64,000 nt of DNA, taken from NCBI RefSeq assembly GCF_001418015.1, contig NZ_LIQG01000026.1, forward strand, positions 62,001 to 126,000, given 5' to 3'. The notes under the pieces were generated by a model. It had not been told where the DNA came from. It was given only the letters and a program-made list of their open reading frames with translations, and did no database searches. Source of the stretch: Lacinutrix mariniflava. Lineage in GTDB: Bacteria; Bacteroidota; Bacteroidia; Flavobacteriales; Flavobacteriaceae. Shown here one piece after another: positions 1 to 60,208 of this stretch (positions within the stretch are counted from its first letter, which is position 1; every line of letters starts with the position of its first letter). The position numbers and the translations under genes were made by a program.

Positions 1-998
1 TTAAAACCTTTATTAAGTATTTTGATAGTCCTTCTGCTATAAACAATAACATCTCTAAATATACCGAAGACGCACATTCACTTTACACCTTATTAAAATT
101 AAATGAAGTAAAAGACAAAAAAAATCTCATCATTATTCCTGATGGTTTTTTAAACTTCATTCCTTTTGATGCGCTTTTAACTACAAAAACAGAAAGTAAA
201 GTTTTCGAAAAAATGTCGTTTTTAGTAAAATCTCATAATGCTGTTTTCAACTCTAATGTTTCGTTATATATAAAAGACAATACATCAAAAAAAGAACAAC
301 GCGTTTTAGGTGTTTTCCCTGTATTTAAAGACACATCGCAAGAGCTTGTTTATTCTATAGATGAAGCAGAAAACATTAAAAAAGAAATAGAAACCACATT
401 ATTGATGAATAAAAATGCTACAAAAAGTAATTTTTTAAGTCAAGCCAAAAACTATTCTATTTTACATTTATCTACACATGGAACGAGTGGTGATTTTTTT
501 GAACCCGCTCAAATAGCATTTACAGACCAACCAATTTCTACTAACGAACTTTATAGCATTAACCTTAATACGGAACTCGTTGTTTTAAGTGCATGCGAAA
601 CTGGAGTTGGAGAAATAAAGCGTGGTGAAGGTGCTTTAAGTATTGCAAGAGGTTTTCAATATGCAGGAGCAAAAAAGGTATTGTATTCGCTTTGGCAAAT
701 TAGCGACTTGTCTACTTCCCAAATTATGACATCGTTTTATATGCATCTAGATAATAGTAAATCTATAAGTTACGCAAACCAACAGTCTAAGCTTGACTAC
801 TTATATAATGAAGACATAAAGAACTTAAAAAAATCACCATACTATTGGGGTGCTTTTACACTTTACGGTAGTTTTGACAAAGTTGAAGACAACAATTATT
901 TGTGGTTAATTATTGGCGTTTCAATAGCAATTATACTACTTTTACTATGCCTATTTAAACGAAAAAATGGAAAACGCACTTTGGGAATTTCTACTTGA
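1..998 (+). CDS. CHAT-domain (caspase-like) protein, 5' truncated by window edge
   Basis: The reading frame is open from base 3, so the true start lies outside the window. The visible part is a CHAT domain: an IPDGFLNFIPFDALL strand, then STHG with the presumed catalytic His codon at 477-479, and LSACETG with the presumed catalytic Cys at 594-596. The C-terminus has one membrane segment (LWLIIGVSIAIILLLL) and a short basic tail. CHAT domains are caspase-related cysteine proteases usually fused to N-terminal TPR repeats; the TPR part would be upstream and is not seen. Both catalytic residues are present, so activity is plausible. The 3' end overlaps the next gene by 32 bases, which suggests an operon with a second protease and a response regulator. 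Confidence 0.85.
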   Translation, partial: KTFIKYFDSPSAINNNISKYTEDAHSLYTLLKLNEVKDKKNLIIIPDGFLNFIPFDALLTTKTESKVFEKMSFLVKSHNAVFNSNVSLYIKDNTSKKEQRVLGVFPVFKDTSQELVYSIDEAENIKKEIETTLLMNKNATKSNFLSQAKNYSILHLSTHGTSGDFFEPAQIAFTDQPISTNELYSINLNTELVVLSACETGVGEIKRGEGALSIARGFQYAGAKKVLYSLWQISDLSTSQIMTSFYMHLDNSKSISYANQQSKLDYLYNEDIKNLKKSPYYWGAFTLYGSFDKVEDNNYLWLIIGVSIAIILLLLCLFKRKNGKRTLGIST

Positions 999-1413
999 AA
1001 AAGAATACAAAAAGATAAAATTAAAACTTACAAAAACTAATCATTTTGAAGTTAAAGCTACAATTAATGGTGTAAAGGGTCTGTTTATACTTGACACAGG
1101 AGCATCAAATAGTTGCATTGGTTTTGAGGATGTTACTTTATTCAATCTTAATGCAAAAGCATCCAACATTAAAGCCGCAGGAGCAGGAGCAATAGATATG
1201 CTAACACAAACAGCATCTAAAAACACTATTAAAATTGGTCGCTGGAAAAGCTCTAATGCTACTTTTGTTCTTTTCGATTTAACACATGTAAATACAGCCC
1301 TAACTATGCATAATGCAAAACCAGTAAATGGAATTATTGGAGCAGATGTACTAAAAAAAGGAAAAGCAATTATAGATTACAACAAGAAATACCTATATTT
1401 AAAAACGTTATAA
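967..1413 (+). CDS. Retropepsin-like aspartic protease (clan AA), 148 aa
   Basis: A small protein with the aspartic protease signature LDTGASNS (Asp43), followed by a second half ending in NGIIGADVLKKGKAIIDY, the GxDxL element typical of retroviral-type bacterial proteases. One DTG motif per chain implies a homodimer. No signal peptide is evident; the first 20 residues are charged. The ATG at 967 lies inside the end of the CHAT gene and no other ATG precedes the DTG motif. The gene lies 21 bases before the response regulator. Substrate unknown; a link with the CHAT protease is inferred from gene order only. Confidence 0.8.
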   Translation: MENALWEFLLEKEYKKIKLKLTKTNHFEVKATINGVKGLFILDTGASNSCIGFEDVTLFNLNAKASNIKAAGAGAIDMLTQTASKNTIKIGRWKSSNATFVLFDLTHVNTALTMHNAKPVNGIIGADVLKKGKAIIDYNKKYLYLKTL

Positions 1414-1434
1414 AGTAAAAAATTCCCTTTAATT

Positions 1435-2067
1435 ATGAGTACCTCTATTGTTATTGCAGACGACCATCCATTAATGCTACGTGGTTTAAGTGATTTTTTA
1501 TCTTCAAAAGGTTATAATATTTTAGGCAAAGCTGAAGATGGTCAAGTTGCATACAACCTTATTATTAAGCATAAGCCGGACATTGCCGTACTAGATATAA
1601 GAATGCCCTATTTAACAGGTTTAGATGTTGCGGAACAATGTCAAAAACATGAGTTAAACACAAAAGTAATTTTAATTACTTTCGATAATGAAGAAGAACT
1701 CTTTGATAAAGCTAGAGCCTTTAATGTTTATGGTTATATTCTAAAAGAATTTGCAATTGAAGAAATTGAAATATGCATTGGTCATGTAATAAAAAATGAA
1801 AAATATTTTAGTGAAGAAATAGCTTCTTATTTAAACTCCAAAATAAAATACTCTAATGCTCACATTAAAGATTTACTTACTAAAACGGAGCTGAAAATTG
1901 TTAGATTATTATCTAAAAACAAATCTAATCAAGAAATTTCAGACACTTTACAAAGCTCTATACGCACAATAGAAAAACACAGAAGTAATATTGTAAAGAA
2001 ATTAAAGCTTCAGAAATCTCATAATGCTTTAATGCTTTGGGCCAACTTGAATAAAGATTTATTTTAG
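1435..2067 (+). CDS. NarL/LuxR-family response regulator, 210 aa
   Basis: N-terminal receiver domain with acidic pocket Asp9-Asp10, phospho-acceptor Asp54 in VLDIRMP, Thr82 and Lys104. The C-terminal LuxR-type helix-turn-helix (about residues 145-205) shows LTKTELKIVRLLSKNKSNQEIS and SIRTIEKHRSNIVKKL. Such regulators are phosphorylated by a sensor kinase and bind paired heptamers. No kinase gene is next to it in the window. It is the last gene of the CHAT/aspartic-protease operon, and three perfect 7-2-7 palindromes lie in the next kilobase, which makes it the obvious candidate to bind them (inference). Confidence 0.93.
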   Translation: MSTSIVIADDHPLMLRGLSDFLSSKGYNILGKAEDGQVAYNLIIKHKPDIAVLDIRMPYLTGLDVAEQCQKHELNTKVILITFDNEEELFDKARAFNVYGYILKEFAIEEIEICIGHVIKNEKYFSEEIASYLNSKIKYSNAHIKDLLTKTELKIVRLLSKNKSNQEISDTLQSSIRTIEKHRSNIVKKLKLQKSHNALMLWANLNKDLF

Positions 2068-2201: not shown

Positions 2202-2256
2202 AAAAAAAATACGTAGTTCTACGTATTTTTTTTTTCGTTTATTCGAATTACCTTTA
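2202..2256 (+). promoter_or_regulatory. Regulated promoter copy 1: 7-2-7 palindrome plus -7 element
   Basis: Perfect inverted repeat (arms 2202-2216 and 2219-2233, spacer TT) with core TACGTAGttCTACGTA. The -7-like TACCTTTA starts at 2249, 31.5 bases from the palindrome centre. There is no TTG -33 element; the palindrome occupies that place, as expected for activator-dependent promoters. CTATTAAT, 13 bases after the TA, is conserved in all three copies. Confidence 0.75.
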
Positions 2257-2260
2257 CAAG

Positions 2261-2332
2261 GCTATTAATCAATTACCTATAAGAGAGTTTCAAGCTCTAC
2301 ATTATATTATAATGTAGAGCTTTTCTTTTTTT
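2261..2332 (+). ncRNA. Candidate small RNA 1 (about 70 nt)
   Basis: Short unit between promoter copy 1 and a strong intrinsic terminator. It begins near the conserved CTATTAATCAAT and ends with an almost perfect 15-bp stem (2292-2306 / 2308-2322, core AGCTCTACATTATA) followed by a T-rich run. No ORF of useful length. Predicted from sequence only; it could also be a leader that terminates early. Confidence 0.5.
2292..2332 (+). terminator. Intrinsic terminator of RNA 1
   Basis: 15-bp perfect stem with a one-base loop at 2307, then TTTTCTTTTTTT. Confidence 0.75.
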
Positions 2333-2535
2333 ATCATTTTCTAAAACTTACATCTACTTCTTTTCTTATTAATTAGATTCCTAGTTATTTTATGAAAAAC
2401 AAAATGGAAATGACTTAAACTCGCGTTCTTAATTATAAAATAAACTTTACAAAAAAAGTTTAAAAACAAATAGAATCATCGTTAACCTCATTAAACACTA
2501 ATAAATGTAACGTTTGAAGATTATAGTAGATTTAG

Positions 2536-2588
2536 AAAAAATACGTAGTTCTACGTATTTTTTAAACCGAATATTCAGCCTATCTTTA
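2536..2588 (+). promoter_or_regulatory. Regulated promoter copy 2: 7-2-7 palindrome plus -7 element
   Basis: Inverted repeat arms 2536-2548 and 2551-2563 with the same core and TT spacer. The -7-like TATCTTTA starts at 2581, again 31.5 bases from the palindrome centre. Confidence 0.75.
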
Positions 2589-2592
2589 TAAT

Positions 2593-2662
2593 GCTATTAA
2601 TCAATGACTATAGGAGAAACCAAAGCTCTACATTATAACCTAATGTAGAGCTTCTCTTTTTT
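2593..2662 (+). ncRNA. Candidate small RNA 2 (about 70 nt)
   Basis: Same architecture as RNA 1: CTATTAATCAAT at 2594, then a purine-rich stretch, then a terminator stem (2623-2635 / 2641-2653) sharing AGCTCTACATTA with RNA 1. The middle part differs between the two. No ORF. Confidence 0.5.
2623..2662 (+). terminator. Intrinsic terminator of RNA 2
   Basis: 13-bp stem, loop TAACC, tail CTCTTTTTT. Confidence 0.75.
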
Positions 2663-2868
2663 ATACCTTTAACTATTATATATATATCGCCGTCACTTCG
2701 ACTACTAGCATACTCCACAATTTTCAAATAAAAAAGGTAATTAGGCCCTAGACTCGCGTTTCAAACTTCGATAATAAAGTGTGAAAAATAAATACCAAAG
2801 TAGCCATAAACACTATAACCTCAATAAAGGCATAGCTTAACAAGGTTTTCGCTATAATTTTTACTTTG

Positions 2869-2922
2869 AAAAAAATACGTAGTTCTACGTATTTTTTTTT
2901 ACGTTAATTCAAGCTATCTTGA
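2869..2922 (+). promoter_or_regulatory. Regulated promoter copy 3: 7-2-7 palindrome plus -7 element
   Basis: Inverted repeat arms 2869-2882 and 2885-2898, same core and TT spacer. The -7-like TATCTTGA starts at 2915, once more 31.5 bases from the centre. Confidence 0.75.
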
Positions 2923-2926
2923 TAAA

Positions 2927-2999
2927 GCTATTAATTGATTTTTAAGGGAAGAATTAATTAAAAAAAACTCTGTATTGTAAAAGGTGCAGAGTTTTTACT
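2927..2999 (+). ncRNA. Candidate small RNA 3 or attenuated leader
   Basis: Begins with the conserved CTATTAAT (2928) and ends in a different hairpin, AACTCTG/CAGAGTT (2968-2974 / 2989-2995), with a T run. A 34-codon ORF starts 15 bases later, so this unit may be a leader whose terminator controls read-through into the peptide gene. Confidence 0.45.
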
Positions 3000-3014: not shown

Positions 3015-3119
3015 ATGGAAGAAATAAATAATACAAAAAGTAATAAATTTATTATTGGCATAATTGTTATTGCTGTAGTTCTAATATGCGTTAACATAGT
3101 TACCGTTTTTATTAATTAG
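3015..3119 (+). CDS. 34-residue single-span membrane peptide
   Basis: Short ORF: a hydrophilic N-terminus (MEEINNTKSNK) followed by one hydrophobic segment of about 20 residues (FIIGIIVIAVVLICVNIVTV). It sits directly downstream of the third palindrome promoter and is followed by its own terminator. I do not recognise a family. The clean membrane segment and framing by regulatory elements support it being real; its length keeps certainty moderate. Confidence 0.5.
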   Translation: MEEINNTKSNKFIIGIIVIAVVLICVNIVTVFIN

Positions 3120-3193: not shown

Positions 3194-4408
3194 TTAAAGC
3201 TCTAAAGCTCTCTTAACATCATTGTCCATTAATATCTCTATTGGGTTTTCTAACGCCTCTTTAACAGCTACCAAGAAACCAACACTCTCTTTACCATCAA
3301 TTATTCTGTGATCGTAAGATAAAGCTACAAACATGATTGGTCTAATCTCAACATGTCCATCTATAGCTACAGGACGATCAACAATATTGTGCATCCCTAA
3401 TATTCCACTTTGTGGTGGGTTAATAATTGGAGTTGATAACATCGAACCAAATACACCACCATTGGTAATAGTAAAGGTTCCACCCGTCATTTCATCTATA
3501 GTTATTTGTCCGTCTCTAGCTCTAAGCGCTAAACGTTTTACTTCTGATTCTATACCTCTAAACGTTAAGTTTTCAGCATTTCTAATTACAGGAACCATTA
3601 ATCCTTTTGGACCAGAAACAGCGATACTAATATCTACAAAATCGAAAGTTTTCATTTCCTTTCCATCTATCATAGAATTAACTGCTGGATACATTTGTAA
3701 TGCACGAACGATAGCTAATGAGAAGAAAGACATAAACCCTAAACCAACACCATGTTTTGCTTTAAACGTTTCTTTATACTCTTTTCTAAGCGCAAAAATT
3801 GGAGACATATCTACTTCGTTAAAAGTAGTTAACATTGCTGTTGTGTTTTTTGCTTCAACTAAACGTTCTGCTACTTTACGACGTAGCATAGACATTTTAG
3901 AATTTGAAGATCCACGATTACCACCAGTTGGAGTTCCCATAGATGGTACTGCATTTACAGCATCATCTTTAGTTATACGTCCAGATTTTCCAGAACCAGA
4001 AATTGTACTTGCGTCCATTCCTTTTTCTGCTAAAATCTTTTTTGCTGCAGGACTAGCTGTTCCAGTTGCATACGTTTTAGTTTCAGTCACTTTTGGAGCT
4101 TCTACAGTTGCTTTTGGAGCTTCTGTTTTTTCCTCAGTTTTTGGTGCATCAGAAGAACCTTCTGGTTTAGCAGCGCCTGTATCTATTAAACAAACAATTG
4201 CTCCTACTTGCACGGCATCACCTTCTTCAGCTTTCAAAGTAATTGTTCCGCTGGCTTCAGCTGGTAACTCTAAAGTTGCTTTATCGCTATCTACTTCTGC
4301 AATAGCTTGATCTTTTTCTACATAATCACCATCTTGAACTAACCATTCTGCTATTTCAACTTCTGTAATAGATTCGCCTGGCGAAGGTACTTTCATTTCT
4401 AAAATCAT
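3194..4408 (-). CDS. odhB: 2-oxoglutarate dehydrogenase E2, dihydrolipoyllysine succinyltransferase
   Basis: 404 aa, usual length for one-lipoyl E2. It transfers succinyl groups from E1 to CoA within the 2-oxoglutarate dehydrogenase complex of the TCA cycle. N-terminal lipoyl domain with lipoylated Lys in [13 protein letters not shown]; an Ala/Pro/Glu/Lys-rich linker (about 80-115); a peripheral-subunit-binding domain ([20 protein letters not shown]); and a C-terminal acyltransferase domain with the active-site motif [10 protein letters not shown]. Same strand and downstream of the E1 gene, with two small genes between. The symbol sucB is equivalent. Confidence 0.96.
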
Positions 4409-58765: not shown

Positions 58766-58842
58766 AAAACAAATACAATTACTTGTTTTTTGGCTAACAA
58801 AATCTTACTACTTTTACCACTTTAAAACAAGAGTTACAATTT

Positions 58843-58922
58843 CGCGTTAGGGATGGAAACGGCATCCTTTTTTATTTTTATTAAAAAGATACAGTGTACA
58901 GCCCGACCTTTAGGTAACGCCC
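58843..58922 (+). ncRNA. Structured RNA or leader before serS
   Basis: Compact fold: outer stem GCGTTA (58844-58849) with TAACGC (58915-58920); inside, a hairpin GGATG gaaacgg CATCC followed by a T run, and a second small hairpin GACCTttaGGT with the CCCGAC motif. It ends 15 bases before the serS ATG. I recall similar GCGTTAGGGAT ... GGTAACGCC blocks recurring in Flavobacteriia genomes but cannot name the family. It may be a free RNA or a cis-leader of serS. Confidence 0.55.
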
Positions 58923-58936
58923 AAAAAATTAAAATT

Positions 58937-60208
58937 ATGTTACAAGTTCCATTTATTAGAGATAACAAAGCTACTGTAATTGCAGGTTTAGCTAAGCGAA
59001 ATTTTGACGCTAAAGATTTAGTTGAGCAAGTAATTACATTAGACGAAGAACGTCGTGGATTACAAACGAAATTAGATAATACTTTAGCAGAATCTAATGC
59101 GATTTCTAAAGAAATAGGAAACTTATACAAATCTGGAAAAGCAGCTGAAGCTAACTTGTTAAAAGAAAAAACGGGTATATTAAAGGAGGATTCTAAAACA
59201 CTTTCTGAAGCGTTAAATGCTGCAGAAGAGAACCTACAAACTTTATTATATAAATTACCAAACGTCCCTCATGAAAGTGTGCCTGCAGGAAAATCTGAAG
59301 AAGATAATGAAGAGATTTTTAATGAAGGTGACATTCCTAAATTATATGACGGAGCGCAACCACACTGGGAATTAGCTAAAAAATACGATATTATTGATTT
59401 CGAATTAGGAACAAAAATTGCTGGAGCAGGTTTTCCAGTATATAAAGGAAAAGGAGCAAGATTACAGCGTGCTTTAATTGCTTACTTTTTAGATAAAAAT
59501 ACTTCTGCGGGCTACACAGAATACCAATTACCACATTTAGTAAATGAGGCTTCTTGTTATGGTACTGGACAGTTACCTGATAAAGAAGGACAAATGTACC
59601 ATGATTCTCGAGACGATTTATATTTAATCCCTACTGCCGAAGTACCTGGTACAAACATTTTTAGAGATGTTTTATTAAACGAAAGCGAATTACCTATTGG
59701 TATTACAGGTTACACGCCGTGTTTTAGACGTGAAGCTGGAAGTTATGGAGCCCATGTTCGTGGATTAAACAGATTACATCAATTTGATAAAGTTGAAATT
59801 ATTAGAGTGGAGCATCCAGACAACTCTTACAAAGCTTTTGAAGCTATGGTAGACCATGTAAAAGATATTTTACGTGAGCTTAAATTACCTTTTAGAATTT
59901 TAAGATTATGTGGTGGCGATACAGGTTTTCCTGCTGCTATGACTTACGATTTTGAAGTTTTCTCGACTGCCCAAGACCGTTGGTTAGAAATCTCTAGTAT
60001 TTCTAATTTTGAAACATACCAAGCAAACCGTTTAAAACTTCGTTTTAAAAATAGCGATGGTAAAAATGAATTAGCACATACACTTAATGGAAGTTCTTTA
60101 GCACTGCCTAGAGTTTTAGCCGGGATTTTGGAGAATTATCAAACTGAGAAAGGGATAGAAATACCTGAAGCTCTTATACCTTATACTGGTTTTTCATTAA
60201 TCGACTAA
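58937..60208 (+). CDS. serS: Seryl-tRNA synthetase
   Basis: 423 aa from the ATG at 58937 (MLQVPFIRDNK), the family start. A longer ORF from 58853 would translate the structured RNA and is rejected. N-terminal coiled-coil tRNA-binding arm (about 25-105), class II motif 2 FRREAGSYGAHVRGLNRLHQ, and motif 3 SSLALPRVLAGILENYQ. Charges tRNA-Ser and tRNA-Sec. Confidence 0.97.
   Translation: MLQVPFIRDNKATVIAGLAKRNFDAKDLVEQVITLDEERRGLQTKLDNTLAESNAISKEIGNLYKSGKAAEANLLKEKTGILKEDSKTLSEALNAAEENLQTLLYKLPNVPHESVPAGKSEEDNEEIFNEGDIPKLYDGAQPHWELAKKYDIIDFELGTKIAGAGFPVYKGKGARLQRALIAYFLDKNTSAGYTEYQLPHLVNEASCYGTGQLPDKEGQMYHDSRDDLYLIPTAEVPGTNIFRDVLLNESELPIGITGYTPCFRREAGSYGAHVRGLNRLHQFDKVEIIRVEHPDNSYKAFEAMVDHVKDILRELKLPFRILRLCGGDTGFPAAMTYDFEVFSTAQDRWLEISSISNFETYQANRLKLRFKNSDGKNELAHTLNGSSLALPRVLAGILENYQTEKGIEIPEALIPYTGFSLID

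Follow-up and report, generated by a model that had tools for sequence, protein, structure and literature searches.

A conserved family of predicted small RNA genes beside a NarL/LuxR-type response regulator gene in Flavobacteriaceae, and its possible feedback on that regulator

The locus and the geometry of its promoters

We analyse a stretch of 64,000 nucleotides from Lacinutrix mariniflava, hereafter the window, in which three promoter-RNA units lie between a response regulator gene and an odhB-like gene (Table 1). The regulator meets the criteria for the NarL/FixJ (LuxR-type) family, that is, a receiver with a phosphoacceptor Asp together with a GerE helix-turn-helix, and its residues D9, D10, D54, T82 and K104, which we take to be the phosphorylation residues, are unchanged across 17 aligned homologues. 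It is not NarL itself, since it scores 92.5 bits against the NCBIfam NarL equivalog, below the cut-off of 250. A protease homologue of 146-150 aa (judged by eye) stands upstream of the regulator in 8 of 9 loci. Further upstream of both genes the window holds a CHAT-domain protein with a weak TPR match (3-998); this gene is seen in full at L057 (3405-5999), and large ORFs occupy the equivalent place in L237 and L238. Far from the array, a Flavo-1 RNA (RF01705, 53.9 bits) lies at 58839-58912, upstream of a gene starting at 58937.

Table 1. Features of the locus in window coordinates
Feature	Position	Strand	Basis or remark
Retropepsin-like aspartyl protease gene, directly 5' of the regulator	967..1413	+	Asp_protease_2
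UUCCCUU, weak candidate pairing site, 5 nt before the regulator ATG (1435)	1423..1429	+	sequence
NarL/LuxR-type response regulator gene (210 aa), presumed activator	1435..2067	+	Response_reg and GerE domains
Operator 1	2210..2225	strandless	exact palindrome TACGTAGttCTACGTA
-7 element 1, TACCTTTA	2249..2256	+	spacer analysis; TAnnTTTG box (PMC9723704)
sRNA 1 (type A)	2261..2332	+	fold
Operator 2	2542..2557	strandless	exact palindrome TACGTAGttCTACGTA
-7 element 2, TATCTTTA	2581..2588	+	spacer analysis
sRNA 2 (type A)	2593..2662	+	fold
Operator 3	2876..2891	strandless	exact palindrome TACGTAGttCTACGTA
-7 element 3, TATCTTGA	2915..2922	+	spacer analysis
RNA 3 (type B)	2927..2996	+	two hairpins, the first with loop AAGGG, the second the terminator
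Single-helix membrane microprotein ORF, 34 aa (MEEINNTKSNKFIIGIIVIAVVLICVNIVTVFIN)	3015..3119	+	recurs after the last unit
Convergent odhB-like gene	3194-4408		named from sequence, no family search

In each of the three units the palindrome TACGTAGTTCTACGTA is flanked by an A-tract and a T-tract, and the only two further palindrome matches in the window both carry 3 mismatches. The palindrome lies 23 bases before the TA of each -7 element (at 2249, 2581 and 2915), and GCTATTAAT starts exactly 12 bases after the TA of the TAnnTT element in all three. Because the sigma-A box TAnnTTTG of Flavobacterium psychrophilum sits at -12 to -5 (PMC9723704), we predict +1 at the G of GCTATTAAT, positions 2261, 2593 and 2927. 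The initial annotation had described three palindromes at a constant distance from -7 elements, GCTATTAAT at these three positions and terminated RNAs of about 70 nt, two of which (RNAs 1 and 2) have a terminator stem in common, and all of this held. Its reading of the palindrome as a 7-2-7 pair of heptamers is corrected to 6-4-6, the inner heptamer bases being variable over 221 sites.

How strict is this geometry? Among 23 array sites, 19 have a spacer of 23 between palindrome and TAnnTT, with every other value from 14 to 35 occurring at most 4 times, and among 30 solo palindromes outside arrays it is 23 in 16, with no other value seen more than 3 times. These counts, at array and solo sites alike, show that the fixed spacing between operator and promoter is not chance. 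The conserved operator is TACGYA-N4-TRCGTA, as derived from the 221 sites at 103 loci, a set in which some genomes are counted twice and relatedness is not removed; TACGTAGAAGTGCGTA, an imperfect hairpin, is an equally common operator elsewhere (34/221 sites). One could instead suppose that the palindromes are bidirectional intrinsic terminators which insulate the genes and are not operators at all. In favour of this, folding the three palindromes and their A/T tracts as RNA gives -10.5 to -12.5 kcal/mol, and T tracts follow them. Against it, the 23-base spacing to the -7 elements is fixed, even at solo sites and leaderless promoters, the operator pair ahead of a curlin-repeat gene (see below) has no T run, and the common operator TACGTAGAAGTGCGTA is not a perfect hairpin. 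We consider the terminator explanation very unlikely.

The operator also varies along with the regulator. Of 44 loci with the GCGTA class of half-site, 43 have D or H at regulator residue 180, and the ACGTA loci (n=55) have E there in 32 cases, D in 19 and T in 3. In G004, where the regulator is 79% identical, the operator is changed to TACGTAATTCAACGTA, and G001 and G003, which have no close regulator, have 0 exact palindromes. This tracking is a correlation only: there are no binding data, some genomes enter twice and relatedness is not removed. G003 (L350; genome 89% complete) is of interest in itself as a natural deletion at the locus, in which the regulator is missing and the aspartyl protease gene is followed by a single RNA with a decayed operator and then by the odhB-like gene.

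The RNA family and its distribution

All three RNAs fold better than each of 200 shuffled sequences (z of -5.63, -4.90 and -6.74 for RNAs 1, 2 and 3), much of this advantage coming from the terminator. The stem common to RNAs 1 and 2 is AGCTCTACATTA, and that of RNA 3 differs; types A and B have the same 5' end. With three homologous sRNA genes in the window, the criterion for sibling sRNAs (at least 2 per genome) is met. In nine Lacinutrix arrays type B is the last palindrome-bearing unit, and it is also the type closest to the form usual in other genera (GCUAUUAAUUAGUUCUUAGGGAGAAUUA). All 23 units chosen by the palindrome alone carry GCTATTAA at the 5' end; in several other sets its invariance holds by construction, because those searches required it, and operator-anchored loci do show variants such as GTTATTAA and GCTATTGA.

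We find that the terminator stem is conserved through compensating change, all 10 of its pairs showing double changes across 63 aligned units. This alignment consists of 58 of 70 offered units plus 5 others, the remaining 12 (long, odd or paralogous) having been removed by hand; since the offered units all had a T run, this selection accounts for the T run but not for the stem. The first hairpin is of variable length. Most of 9 distinct 28-mers keep its pairing through changes, in a small set selected only on the loop, and RNAalifold run on the 63-unit alignment did not call it. A covariance model matches every one of the 13 genomes of the genus (E up to 0.1), some of which went into building it. 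Rfam 15 gives gathering-level matches in the window to tRNA and Flavo-1 only and none in 12 loci, its weak low-threshold matches were judged to be chance, and the phage records searched contain no match. The Winogradskyella-type RNAs (L284, L286, L292, L298, L302) begin with an additional hairpin, GTTATTAATTAAGGGTTAATAAC, ahead of GCTATTAATTAG; this hairpin is a second copy of the 5' end plus loop.

Now we consider how far the array extends beyond the window. The window's own genome holds 8 copies of the exact palindrome; a set of 60 genomes that includes it holds 53 sites, and the reversed pattern is found at none. Within the genus, a search pattern that joins half-site, -7 element and RNA start occurs in 12 of 13 genomes and its control in none; in the family it occurs in 38 of 249 genomes, with 69 matches against 9 in the control. 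Fifty-four of the 69 family matches, in 27 genomes, lie within 1 kb downstream of a regulator homologue on the same strand. The other 15 are not beside a listed homologue; two of them are at a contig end in G274, a genome that does have the array. Outside the family, the pattern used finds nothing above chance in 246 genomes of the order: there are matches in 11, with a regulator homologue just upstream in G000 and G188, and the others look like chance, the reversed control being matched no less often.

Approached from the regulator, the association is tighter still. Of the 46 full-length homologues with 56% identity or more, namely 44 fetched with 2.5 kb of downstream sequence plus G000 and G011, 45 have the RNAs next to them. 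Units are present at 43 of the 44 fetched loci (none in G254) and also in G000 and G011; 42 of the fetched loci hold 1-3 units and one holds 6. In G004 we count six units by eye, two with altered 5' ends. G086 is not among the 46, having only half a regulator (71%), yet it has a pattern match. A wider set takes the best 80 of at least 546 relatives, many from genomes also in the 249-genome family set, and includes Lacinutrix, Bizionia, Olleya, Algibacter, Flavivirga, Hyunsoonleella, Winogradskyella, Psychroserpens and Aequorivita. The comparison places the window within Lacinutrix or very close to it (97% to L. algicola). Among these 80, sRNA units are found in 66 (L246 being added by another scan), a leaderless form, discussed below, in 9 and neither in 4; depending on definition the number of sRNA loci is 68 or 66, the latter without L246 and L293. 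Two observations stand apart from these counts. In G008 (L040/L230), an 84% complete, single-contig genome, one TAA, real or a sequencing error, breaks the regulator frame and the RNA array is present. Paralogous regulators at L218, L219 and L220 (39-45% identity) are each followed by a single GCTATTAAT RNA, and the operators there are arranged differently.

From sequence alone, the initial annotation had inferred a regulator-controlled set of sibling small RNAs and proposed testing whether its palindrome co-occurs with the regulator across Flavobacteriaceae. Co-occurrence held, by the 54 of 69 matches beside a homologue, and the possibility that the palindrome is placed at random, unrelated to the regulator, is not borne out, given the adjoining RNAs in 45 of 46 homologues at 56% identity or above. 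The set as such is strongly supported by co-location, by the change or loss of the operator together with the regulator and by RNA covariation. That the regulator binds the operators and that the RNAs are transcribed remains inferred, as there are no binding or transcript data.

A membrane-microprotein ORF, predicted leaderless promoters and other operator sites

Beyond the last unit, an ORF of the microprotein type (about 30-45 codons, one hydrophobic helix) follows in 45 of 54 arrays; the same scan of the reverse strand gives none in 54, and shuffled sequence gives 4%. Pfam and NCBIfam searches of the microprotein are without a match. It is likely that RNA 3 doubles as the leader of this conserved microprotein gene, with both read-through and transcription inferred. 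Taken to its extreme, this suggests an explanation in cis only, in which every unit serves the microprotein mRNA as a leader or attenuator and the surplus copies are duplications in decay. The position of the ORF after the last unit in those 45 arrays speaks for it, as do the leaderless microprotein promoters of a sister clade. However, units 1 and 2 retain operators, promoters, 5' ends and covarying terminators in many genera, and they lie hundreds of bases ahead of the microprotein ORF, so we regard a purely cis role as very unlikely.

In the sister clade (Aequorivita and kin) the operator and promoter geometry is the same, and the start codon of such a microprotein ORF falls exactly at the predicted +1. 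This leaderless form is found in 9 of 30 loci (L284-L313) and 6 of 18 loci (L176-L193), some genomes being common to both. Over these two lower-identity sets, 48 loci in all, the start codon of a 25-60 codon ORF lies 35 bases after the operator in 15, and no other offset from 20 to 59 occurs in more than 6. A quick tree of 80 rows, built without roughly half, or more, of the sRNA rows, separates the sRNA and leaderless forms by one change. The direction of the switch is unsettled, because no branch has the outgroup as one of its sides and L191_G182 lies outside both clades. The leaderless and sRNA forms of this promoter allow the birth or loss of an sRNA to be traced.

The operator is not confined to the arrays. 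In Lacinutrix one or two operators stand ahead of a gene for a secreted curlin-repeat protein, for example at 2065-2104 in L089 (G000:C22); the Pfam assignment covers L089 only, and L066, L078, L082, L088 and L093 have N-termini that are similar by eye. The curlin-repeat gene may form an amyloid branch of the regulon, though we offer this as a possibility only. Further operator promoters precede species-variable genes such as those for a SAVED protein (L071) and a DUF3800 protein (L092), and in L077 an operator without the exact -7 spacing precedes a Tox-MPTase3 protein gene. As a separate observation, repeated operator-bearing promoter modules occur in Lacinutrix before unrelated variable genes (SAVED, DUF3800, HAD and others) at L090, L071, L081, L085, L070, L092, L083, L084, L072, L080, L086 and L091. 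Several have an upstream terminator, and in some a string resembling TATATAACAnGTTGT closes the module immediately ahead of the gene. They could conceivably be shared promoters at hotspots of gene exchange.

Complementarity to the regulator leader, the proposed circuit and known systems

The heptamer TAATAGC, the complement of the RNA 5' end, stands before the regulator start codon in many loci. We find it in 21 of 50 regulator leaders and in 2 of 205 other ORF leaders, one of the two being a start inside a regulator gene; the loop complement YCCCTA is found in 9 of 50 and 0 of 205. (The leader tests use the 50 closest loci, with the window added in some.) In the fuller set TAATAGC occurs in 35 of 68 loci with the sRNA and 0 of 12 without, the reversed word in 0 of 80. 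These are not 80 independent cases, because sRNA and leaderless loci occupy separate parts of the tree. In 12 loci, from Winogradskyella and Psychroserpens, the heptamer lies 3-5 nt upstream of the ATG; in 23 more, from Algibacter, Hyunsoonleella, Flavivirga and others, the distance is 17-25 nt and the loop complement often falls in the gap.

At the level of duplexes, loops pair better with their own leaders than with permuted ones (12 of 5000 permutations as good), a test that relatedness again inflates, and three loci have exact loop-leader complements of 12-13 nt. The 5' end alone shows no difference between own and permuted partners (2525/5000). RNAduplex on whole leaders gives a mean z of -1.43 over 51 loci, with a shuffle fraction of at most 0.05 in 17, and the window is not among these. 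In the window's own regulator leader TAATAGC is absent; its UUCCCUU is complementary to the loop AAGGGAA of RNA 3 (2944-2950), and the leader duplex is not significant (z -1.13, shuffle fraction 0.09). We name the regulator's own mRNA as the predicted target of the RNAs on complementarity, with repression inferred and the case weak in the window's genome. TAATAGC is absent from 33 of the 68 sRNA loci, and other targets must exist, since the RNA retains its 5' end even at loci whose leader has no complement. A search for TTAATAGC-N2-26-CCCTA in 35 genomes gave at least 174 matches against 92 for the reversed control. It recovered the regulator leaders of G107 and G168, but with matches in all 35 genomes it was not selective, and no target was identified.

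An alternative is that the regulator-activated sRNAs act as protein sponges of the Csr/Rsm kind, or on unlinked mRNAs, the leader match being secondary. Multiple copies with one conserved loop, AGGGA, do resemble sponge RNAs, and the retention of the 5' end where the regulator leader has no complement also speaks for this alternative. On the other side, CsrA (PF02599) is above cut-off in 0 of 40 genomes, with one sub-cut-off match in G051, in a search that does detect CsrA in 3 of 14 control genomes, and the leader sites are complements of the RNA, not copies of it. A sponge of known type is unlikely because CsrA was not found, and we judge the alternative as a whole to be unlikely.

The reading we prefer, and think likely, is that of a regulator-activated array of sibling RNAs that limits its own activator. 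The operator, the geometry, the adjacency, the RNA covariation and the complementarity are shown by computation; binding, transcription, repression, read-through and the function of the microprotein are inferred. In the proposed mechanism, an orphan response regulator of the NarL/LuxR family would bind TACGTA-N4-TACGTA, whose centre lies about 43.5 bases upstream of +1, and in that position would replace the -33 element and activate an array of 1-6 sRNA promoters. Each promoter would yield a roughly 70-nt RNA whose 5' end, GCUAUUAA, is nearly invariant and mostly unpaired and which ends in a terminator; in many lineages there is also a short hairpin, its purine-rich loop being UAGGG or GAGAGA. 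Through this 5' end and the loop, the RNA is predicted to pair with the regulator mRNA leader just before the start codon, which would lower translation and close a negative feedback loop. The last RNA would serve, through read-through, as leader of the small membrane-protein mRNA, and the same operator would drive scattered genes including that for the curlin-repeat protein. One possibility, no more than a guess, is that the microprotein restrains an unknown sensor kinase. A bolder reading then has two nested feedback loops, RNA on regulator mRNA and microprotein on the unknown sensor, plus a promoter that switches between leaderless mRNA and sRNA; we lean against it. If it were true, the first base of a coding transcript would be where an sRNA gene had arisen or been lost.

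The initial annotation was incomplete in that it missed the microprotein ORF, the leaderless start at +1, the leader complement and the other genes with operators. Its author knew of no description of such an array, and we found none in the open-access literature searched, which leaves out most subscription papers and all preprints. To our knowledge, no more than a few sRNA circuits are understood in Bacteroidota. Here one locus, recurring in many genera, brings together a conserved sRNA family, its likely activator, the operator, a predicted first target and a microprotein, and the circuit is directly testable because all of these are in one place.

Sibling sRNAs under a response regulator are known, and as far as the literature searched goes it is this family, its layout and the leaderless/sRNA switch that appear to be undescribed. 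Within the same bacterial family, the sRNA Rfp18 of Flavobacterium differs in that it is described as pairing via a third stem-loop and acting on protease mRNAs (PMC9723704). As general background (see PMC7911923), GacA, a regulator of NarL/FixJ type, activates the multicopy RNAs RsmX/Y/Z with purine-rich loops. These RNAs titrate RsmA/CsrA, whereas CsrA was not found here in 40 genomes. The csRNAs of CiaR (PMC4211561; PMC4507080), partly in tandem, and LhrC1-5 of LisR (PMC5880928) are likewise siblings under one response regulator, but in Gram-positive hosts and with other seeds; CiaR and LisR are OmpR-type regulators. The Qrr RNAs of Vibrio are siblings activated by the response regulator LuxO and take part in negative feedback loops (PMC4211561). 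They repress luxO itself, and LuxO is a sigma-54 activator. Their genes are distal, unlike those here, and the RNA is different.

The closest parallel is with OmrA/OmrB and OmpR in enterobacteria, where tandem sibling sRNAs likewise have common 5' and 3' parts and differing middles, are activated by a response regulator and repress that regulator's own gene (PMC4211561); for the window's array the same logic is only proposed. There is even a link through curli, csgD being an OmrA/OmrB target (PMC4211561) and a curlin-repeat gene carrying the operator here. The resemblance is by analogy, between unrelated RNAs: the Rfam covariance model of OmrA/OmrB has no gathering-level match in the window or in 12 loci, and the present system differs in having a NarL/LuxR-type regulator, RNA genes that adjoin it in 1-6 copies, a microprotein and a host in a different phylum.
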